Assembly (NCBI GenBank): GCA_009760855.2
Contig: WPIO01000009.1
Coordinates: 2,604,501-2,668,500 of the forward strand
DNA length: 64,000 nt
Source: Cristatella mucedo
Taxonomy: Eukaryota; Bryozoa; Phylactolaemata; Cristatellidae
Direction of reading: 5' to 3'
The stretch's first letter is position 1; every line of letters begins with the position of its first letter. Shown in pieces: positions 51,101 through 55,052 of this stretch. A program made the translations under genes and the position numbers. The notes under the pieces are model-generated. The model was not told the DNA's origin and made no database searches. It saw only the letters and a list, made by a program, of their open reading frames with translations.

Positions 51101-54100
51101 GGACGCTGCCAGCAAGTTCTCGCAGCTGCACGCCGGCAAGACCGGCCAGCAGCAGCAAAAGCAGTTCGAGGTACGGCAGGCTGCGGCGCTGGTCGGCTGC
51201 AAACGATCGCCCCCGCAATCGATCCCGCCGCTGCGTCGGGCACAGCGCTGGGAAGCGCGCGCCTGGAGCTCGATCGATCGATCGACGGACGGTAGGCAGT
51301 CGTCGGTGAGATGCTTTGGCTCGAGGCTCCGTCCTGCGCTCAACATTTTTTTGCGAACGAAACGAGTCGAGTTTGGCAATCTTCTCTCGCGATCTCCTTC
51401 GCTGGGGCTCCGTCGAGCAGCAGAGCAATTTCACCGCTGGCTCATTCTGCCGGCGCCGAGGCGGCAGCCGGTCGGCCTCGTTTTCGTCTTCGTTGCTACG
51501 GCGCCGATCAAATGCGTTAGATTCATTCAGCTATCGCCTGCGGTCTCGAAACCTGAGGAGAGTGTGAATTGTTCGGCTGGCAGCATTTCGTTGATGCGCG
51601 AAGTGAGTTGCTGCTCCCTAGTCCCCATGGCAGGCTCGCTAACGTCGACGGAGCATGTGCGGTTTTTCTCTCTGCAGAAGCGTTCCGACGAAGTGAAAGC
51701 GCTGCTAGGTCAGGTCGACAAAGTGAAGCTTCAGCTGCAGGCATCCACTATACTGGAAAGCTCTACTGTGAATGCGCAAGATTCAAAGGATACCACTGCT
51801 GCAACGAAGCAGGTGCGGCTCGGCCATTTTTGGTGCTGATGTGCCGCGAGAGTGTTGTAGCCGGACGGTTGGAAGCGGATCTGGGTGCTTGCTGCACCCG
51901 TCGCTGTTACTTGCATTTAGTAGAGCACCTCTGTTCTTCTTTAATGTCTCGGTGTGCTGACGGCAGGCTTATGCTTGCCGATGCTGCAATGGTGGCTGCA
52001 TGTCATAAGTATCCTTGGCCTGTCTTAACGCTTGTCGATACCTTTTCTATGGGGGGTGGGTTCTGTACTAGGGAAAACTAAAACGGAACTGTGCATTCTG
52101 ATACTGTTTAGTTTGGCTCCGAGCCGTTGGGCTGCTTTGTTTCAGCACTGTAGCCAGGACGTTTCATTTTTCTCACTATGTGTTAGTACGGGGTTGCTTG
52201 GGCAATCTCGATTCATCGGTGGCCTTCTATCTCGGCTTGTTATCGTATCGTTACATGCTGTGCAGCTCACTTGAGCCCGTGTTCGCATCTATTCTGCTTC
52301 TTGCTAGTACACTCTGACGGTTTGGTGTATTTGTGGCCTTCTAAATAGCGCCGCTTTAGGTCTCTCTATACCTATCTATATACTCTCTATACAAGCACCC
52401 TCTTCCCGCTTGGTTAGGCATCAGCTCACCTAGTGTCCGAGTTAAGTTGCATCCACTTGTCACCGTGGCACCAACTTTTCACTGCGAAAATCATCTTTGT
52501 TAACACCCGTCCAGCACCCCGGCCTGATCGATCATCCGTAGGCCCTATGATGGAAGACGCCAGCTCCAAGGGTAATTCGAGTTCTACCGCCGCCATTTTC
52601 GCAGGTCTCCCAGGCACGGGCACGTCGGGCGCTGTCAAGCAGCTCCGTGCAGCTGTGCATGCACTCCAGACTGGCCAGCATTCATTCTTGAGTGTCAGTG
52701 TTCACGGGAGACAGCACACTGCAACCAGCCTTCATTCAGTTCGCTCGACCTCGAGTTGCTCTGTTGCTGCAAAGTTCTATTTCTAAACCTATATGTTGTG
52801 GCTTAATGTGTCTGTGTTCCTCCCTGGGGACTGGCTCCAACCCCCCCCCTTCCCACCTAGTTTGGTAAGACTGTATCACTTAAGGCATAAGGGTTTGGAA
52901 GCCATTGAGAAAATTTGTAAAGCTATCGATGCTTTATGAAAAGAGCCTTTCAAAAGGCACAAGATTATATAAATGCACTCCTCACGTTTTGATGATTGTC
53001 GAAGAAAGGGAGTCGTTTAAAAATGATTATGAGAACCCTGTCTAAACCGGAAGCAAATAATCTACAAATAAAACATTTACTGATCTCGGCATCATATGCA
53101 ACTTGTAGCCCAACTTTTTGAACATGGGCACATTGAGGTACGTGTCTGCCGCTAATTGAGGCTCGTGCCTCCAAATTTCAACGCTGCTCCGTTGCAGTCT
53201 ACCTTAGTGCCTTGTAAATTCTATAGGTTAGCCAAAATTTCTCCGATGCGAGTACAATTTGGAATACGAGTTTGGCTCTGCTTGTGCATCACTAATCTAT
53301 TTCAGTGTAGGTTGGGTAATTAGACACCTAATAATAATGAATAAAATGGTAAATCAAGTGCAATGACACATCAGGACATTTATAGCTACACTTACCCAAC
53401 CCACATCAGAAATAAACTAGATAATTGATGGACAGGCAGGGCCCAAATCATATTCAAAATTTCACCCCGACCGGTGAAGCATTGGCCAAGCTGTGGAATC
53501 TGCAGGGCACAGAGGTAGACCGTTATGGAACCGGGTTTAAAGTTGGAAGCATGAACCTCAACTAGCTGCAAACATGTACATCAAGGTGTCAAGATTTAAC
53601 AAGTTAGGAGACAAGTCTTATACGATTTGGAGATCGTTAAATTTGGTGTCTGTTGATATCTTGCTTCTGTGTTAGACAGGGTTCTCGTAATCATTCTTTA
53701 ATGATTTAATGTTTGTGAAAATCATCAAAATATCATTTCAAAATGTCAGAGTTCATTTATAAAATGTTTGCCCTTTGAAAGGCTCTTTTCATAAAGTATC
53801 GATTGCTTGACTACATTTGCCTAGTGTTTTTCTACCCTTATGCCTGTGGGGCTGAGTGTTGAGAGCGGCAGATCTCGTCAGTGCCGCTGTTGCTCTATTT
53901 TTGGCTTACATAAAGTGTGCTTCGTGCACTAGTTGATCTAGGACCATGGTTCCTTAACCTTCCTAATGCCGCGACCCTTTAATACAGTTCCTCATGCTGT
54001 GGCGAGCCCCAACCATAAAATTATTGTGTGCAAGATGTGGAAATGCATGTTTTCCGATGGTCTTAGGCGACCCCTGTGAAAGGGTTGTTCGACCCCTAAA

Positions 54101-55052: not shown

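Follow-up and report, generated by a model that had tools for sequence, protein, structure and literature searches.

A SPIN-like hAT element in an SRP68 intron of an apparently invertebrate genome, and its family of short and long copies

Positions 53944 to 54131 of a 64,000-nt window (the whole stretch of DNA analysed here) hold a 188-bp DNA transposon that is very probably a SPIN-type hAT-Buster element: an internally deleted, non-coding MITE that would have been moved by the transposase of full-length copies, and whose lineage would have entered the host horizontally. The initial annotation had proposed a SPIN-like hAT in an apparently invertebrate genome. That proposal is supported by TA-centred 8-bp duplications, SPIN-type ends, relatives of about 3 kb with a weakly hAT-like transposase, likeness to published mouse fragments, and the reading of the host's COX1 gene. 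The name SPIN is suggested by those mouse fragments, whose source passages do not themselves name it, and by the known features of the family.

Anatomy of the element and its intron

The element (53944..54131, + strand) is non-autonomous and shares 94% identity with the consensus from its own genome over 185 bp. It is flanked by the octamer ATCTAGGA on the left (53936..53943) and on the right (54132..54139). This octamer, to which no strand is assigned, has the form nnnTAnnn; the motif of the family is nTCTAGAn. The two flanking octamers are identical at 8/8 positions, which confirms the perfect 8-bp duplication that had been annotated around the 188-bp element. The left terminal inverted repeat (53944..53959, + strand) reads CCATGGTTCCTTAACC in the window and CAGTGGTTCTCAACCT in the consensus and is partly decayed; the 5' start of the consensus is CAGTGGTTCTCAACC, and that of the window copy is again CCATGGTTCCTTAACC. 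The right terminal inverted repeat (54116..54131, - strand) ends the window copy with GGTTTAGAATCGCTG, compared with GGTTGAGAACCGCTG in the consensus. The ends of this copy are thus recognisable, not pristine. The earlier statement that both SPIN-type ends are kept is correct as to their recognition, the terminal inverted repeats of the consensus matching at 15/16 bases, and is too strong for the window copy, where the left one is partly decayed. The copy differs from the 40-copy consensus at 14/187 positions (non-CpG K2P 0.070); the element is real, but at ∼7% divergence it is less well preserved than had been assumed. Nothing recognisable is encoded by the 188-bp MITE. A blastn search of the window with the family consensus (E up to 1e-3) found this copy only.

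The host gene is SRP68. Upstream of the element, two open frames on the + strand carry SRP68 exon sequence, one at 50336..50812 (Pfam PF16969, E 1.5e-9, residues 20-102) and one at 50643..51839 (PF16969, E 3.4e-8, residues 121-176). Downstream, the open frame at 54735..55052 (+ strand) contains the last recognisable SRP68 exon, matched by SRP68 chains in PDB (best E 2.3e-17, residues 20-76). Judged by these matches, the element is within the last recognisable SRP68 intron, between + strand exons, and the annotated location in an intron of a conserved gene is supported on both sides. It would be expected to be removed with the spliced intron, as its effect on SRP68.

The same intron contains an inverted repeat just upstream of the element (52987-53302 and 53415-53730), with arms of 316 nt that are 72% complementary and 112 nt apart; a second pair (52883-52959 and 53769-53845) encloses it. 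The inverted repeat is perhaps an older foldback element. Elsewhere in the window, an open frame of 518 codons at 17330-18886 (- strand) matches reverse transcriptase (PF00078, E 1.7e-25). Pieces resembling it by eye lie at 33528-34160 (- strand), at 37560-37976 (+ strand) and from 56296 onward; the frame and its lookalikes suggest a common non-LTR retrotransposon. A further open frame at 3705-4796 (+ strand) matches the HMG box over its initial 22 positions (PF00505, E 0.0017, below the cut-off) and may be one of the early exons of a gene of this type.

Short and long copies in the host genome

The genome that was searched comprises 572 Mb in 688 contigs. A 204-base stretch compared with this genome gave 2,177 first-look candidates, 40 of which were scored. 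Besides the window itself, these comprised 39 sequences of 87-93% identity, and the 40 are distributed over 31 contigs. Alignment of all 40 scored copies yielded a family consensus of 187 bp that starts with CAGTGGTTCTCAACC and ends with GGTTGAGAACCGCTG. The mean non-CpG K2P of these copies is 0.051, which is biased since they are the best matches to one query. All 40 scored candidates have E < 1e-62, and the genome contains 198 occurrences of a conserved 24-mer, compared with 0 of its reversed control; the element family is therefore not a chance likeness.

For a sample of divergence, the first 30 of the listed 24-mer loci were cut out. Of these, 26 could be aligned to 160 or more bases of the short consensus, and four longer or broken forms (L053, L062, L063, and L078) were left out of the mean. 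Outside the 24-mer and CpG sites, the 26 loci differ from the short consensus by 0.083 on average (range 0.022-0.145). If this divergence holds family-wide, about 1/8 of the copies would keep the 24-mer intact, and the 198 intact occurrences then suggest a family of approximately 1,600 copies. The family has probably spread to more than 1,000 copies. With an assumed rate of 2-5 changes per billion sites per year, the family would be ∼17-42 million years old (from 0.083) and the window copy ∼14-35 million years old (from 0.070). Horizontal transfers of such elements among animals have been placed at ∼45 to 15 million years (PMC3621081). Some insertions are clustered: one locus (L058) has three SPIN-type copies within 3 kb, and another (L076) has two copies ∼100 bases apart.

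Target sites were compared in 62 distinct copies with both ends, which remained from 70 given loci after incomplete and duplicate ones had been dropped. The flanking eight bases agree at 7 or 8 positions in 38/62 copies (8/8 in 16, 7/8 in 22), at 6/8 in 11, and at fewer in 13. As a control, left and right flanks were paired from different copies, and 2.5% of the 3,782 pairs agree at 7 or 8 positions. In the 49 copies agreeing at 6 or more positions, the duplication follows the motif nTCTAGAn, with T at position 4 in 47/49 and A at position 5 in 47/49. TcBuster has target sites of the form nnnTAnnn, and the same paper puts SPIN in the Buster family (PMC3499496). By their sequence, the TA-centred 8-bp duplications of the present family are of the Buster type.

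Longer copies, ∼300 to 920 bp in size, have a different interior. In the consensus of 13 long forms, the first 81 bases are those of the short consensus (81/81), after which the two diverge, which indicates that the 187-bp form derives by internal deletion and has a junction of its own. Among 20 further stretches, ten of which reach ∼4 kb, one contained a 2,956-bp element (L096). When the interior of this element was used as a DNA query, six places were found, three of which, including L096, cover most of the query. L112 is 3,110 bp long and has a perfect ATTTAGAT duplication, and the 2,997 bp read of L111 stop short of its 3' end; a matching duplication was looked for at the ends of L096 and was not found. 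The three copies share 84.5-85.4% pairwise identity.

The transposase pieces of L096, L111, and L112 run antisense to the orientation adopted for the family, and all three copies are broken by stops and frame changes. We compared six single-copy transposase pieces with Pfam; the best match, from one piece, was to the hAT dimerisation domain (PF05699, E 0.043). Eight further entries, one of them nested in another, had no relevant Pfam match. A majority reading of the three copies gave a C-terminal match to PF05699 (E 0.0024, 66/84 positions, 18.1 bits, under the cut-off of 21.4) and gave a weak zinc-finger match at the N-terminus (PF18658, E 0.0014, 18.8 bits, cut-off 27.3). No transposase was found among PDB structures searched with these pieces. 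To us, the protein pieces of the long copies presumably read like SPIN transposase. The initial annotation had named a full-length SPIN transposase elsewhere in the genome as possible support for transfer: relatives of ∼3 kb do exist, but their transposase is broken and its hAT match is weak. The transposase is broken in all three long copies that were read, and the family looks decayed; on the reading of these copies it is probably silent now. Other weak hits in these searches, to unrelated proteins such as CalpT10, multicystatin, ELFV dehydrogenase, Ciart, Viral_cys_rich, Tox-GHH2, DUF3939, and lipo_CT253, were attributed to chance.

In the hAT superfamily, end binding, excision, and insertion with duplication of an octamer are established. 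The anatomy described above is directly observed, and the reaction behind it can be proposed from hAT biology. Transposase from full-length copies elsewhere in the genome would bind the two matching ends of the element and cut it from its donor site. Within the last recognisable SRP68 intron, an 8-bp target centred on TA would then receive the element and be copied on both sides of it. Derivatives would multiply in this way, in the sample seen mostly as deletion forms of ∼187 bp.

Likeness to SPIN and alternative origins

Two mouse genes provided fragments for comparison. The passage on a mouse Ate1 construct prints two reverse primers and does not name SPIN (PMC2767504). The first was found by a search for letters of the element, and the second came with it. 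In the right part of the consensus, the primers agree with it at 18/19 (the first primer minus its leading T) and 18/20 positions, compared with 15 and 14 in the best of 500 mononucleotide shuffles. The second primer (R2) occupies a site 55-75 bases from the right end of the element, and its two mismatches together form a CG read as TA. Two stretches of mouse Pqbp1 are printed in a passage that likewise does not use the name (PMC3713010). The stretch that was found by its letters matches the left part at 18/20 over a chosen core (best shuffle 15); over its printed whole it matches the short consensus at 23/35 and one long-form locus (L089) at 24/35 (best shuffle 21). The second printed stretch matches L089 at 22/30 as a whole (best shuffle 20) and the short consensus, which is without that part, at 17/30; over a chosen core, located ∼115 bases from the left end, its agreement with the long-form consensus reaches 21/24. 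The two sites are 129 apart in the numbering of the paper and ∼99 apart in the element (PMC3713010). A Wee1 mouse primer printed in PMC11021458 was dropped, since only 14 of its letters are common to the element. One 27-base and one 24-base element pattern had no exact match in viral contigs or in bacterial and archaeal genome contigs. We take the mouse Ate1 and Pqbp1 repeats to be SPIN/URR1.

A hAT-Buster MITE native to the phylum of the host, vertically inherited and SPIN-like at its ends only, is an unlikely source of this family. hAT-Buster elements are widespread in animals, the comparison covers the short mouse fragments as published, and the transposase match is weak. However, the likeness to these fragments is also internal (Ate1 R2 18/20 and Pqbp1 21/24), and in non-coding DNA it would not be expected to persist if both lineages had inherited it from the ancestor that mouse and invertebrate share. 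We infer from this that the family entered the invertebrate lineage horizontally. The copies, moreover, are on average just 8.3% from their consensus outside CpG sites (26/30 loci), which also counts against this alternative. It is quite improbable that the element belongs to a neighbouring hAT family, of the Charlie or OposCharlie type, and not to SPIN proper. Duplications of 8 bp and short terminal repeats are common to hAT families. OC1 has likewise moved between vertebrates and Rhodnius (PMC11614815). The duplications here, however, are TA-centred, as in the Buster group that holds SPIN. The internal letters of the long forms also appear to agree with those of SPIN_NA and rodent SPIN/URR1.

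Mouse does have such sequence, to judge from the printed fragments, and an assembly may include foreign contigs, so vertebrate DNA carrying SPIN was weighed as a contaminant. This is unlikely to the point of being negligible, since the 40 scored copies are spread over 31 contigs, the longest of 24.8 Mb, and the window copy has exons of a single gene on both sides within a 9.5-Mb contig. The mitochondrial contig of the assembly, moreover, does not fit the vertebrate code, and contamination is refuted as far as the present data go. We return to the SPIN-type MITE as the preferred reading in what follows.

Host lineage and known SPIN systems

A contig of 21,008 bases (C688) is mitochondrial: COX1 was identified by Pfam, and the other genes were named by eye from translations. 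COX1 is open over 517 codons under codes 5, 9, and 4, with a longer open frame under code 14; under the vertebrate code 2 it is interrupted. Code 5 was chosen over 9 or 4 from residues that we take to be conserved in other animals. The contig contains the block nad1-trnP(opposite)-nad6-cob-trnS2-trnT(opposite)-nad4L-nad4-trnH-nad5. We take this to be a lophotrochozoan order, of the kind seen in nemerteans, chitons, and many gastropods; that of euthyneuran snails is different. It suggests a lophotrochozoan host, perhaps a mollusc outside the pulmonates.

SPIN is a classic example of DNA that has moved between distantly related animals; its known full length is ∼3 kb, and Lymnaea stagnalis is among its hosts. 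The present family resembles tetrapod SPIN and SPIN_NA in its letters near both ends and at some internal sites (as judged from the printed mouse fragments, whose SPIN identity is presumed), in its 8-bp duplications, and in the presence of ∼3-kb long copies with many short deletion derivatives. It differs from tetrapod SPIN in its invertebrate host and in a dominant 187-bp form with its own junction after consensus base 81. The target sites of TcBuster share the form nnnTAnnn (PMC3499496); TcBuster is an active beetle element, whereas each of the three long copies read here is broken.

In PMC11614815, SPIN in Rhodnius prolixus is described as acquired from vertebrates. That host is also an invertebrate, but it is a blood-feeding insect, and the present host, probably a lophotrochozoan by its mitochondrial gene order, has no known feeding link. 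The SPIN-like hAT of Biomphalaria glabrata, with ∼1,000 copies and no intact transposases detected in its assembly according to PMC5440852, is closest in host group and order of copy number and is likewise decayed. The mitochondrial gene order here, in contrast, does not look euthyneuran, so a different host lineage is likely, and long broken copies were read. No further invertebrate SPIN host was among the matches listed in a literature search that covered few subscription papers and did not reach the founding paper.

SPIN had thus already been reported from invertebrates, and the host lineage here is probably new; the part of the SPIN-like reading that adds a host is likely to hold. The chances are about even that, outside the pulmonate snails, SPIN made an independent invasion of a lophotrochozoan lineage and left long as well as short copies there, of an age within the time span published for tetrapod transfers. 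If true, SPIN would have crossed between phyla once more, and its carrier would have to be something other than a blood-feeding insect. An invertebrate with probably more than 1,000 copies, long ones included, adds a datable point to the history of SPIN. Should the host prove to be something other than a pulmonate snail or a triatomine bug, more kinds of carrier would come into question, and the transfer route could be tested in near relatives.

Several minor observations concern the mitochondrial contig. ARAGORN found no tRNA on it in bacterial mode and 44 candidates, some surely false, in mitochondrial mode. A unit of 2,119 bases lies at 10795-12913 and again at 12910-15028 (L014-L016), and an inverted copy of 1,795 bases lies at 2431-4225; all copies of the repeat are 100% identical. 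They are either an assembly artefact or part of a truly expanded mitochondrial genome of 21 kb. COX1-like pieces with stops are found in other contigs (L010, at G000:C166:4375626-4376390, and L011, L012, and L013) and look like nuclear copies of mitochondrial DNA.
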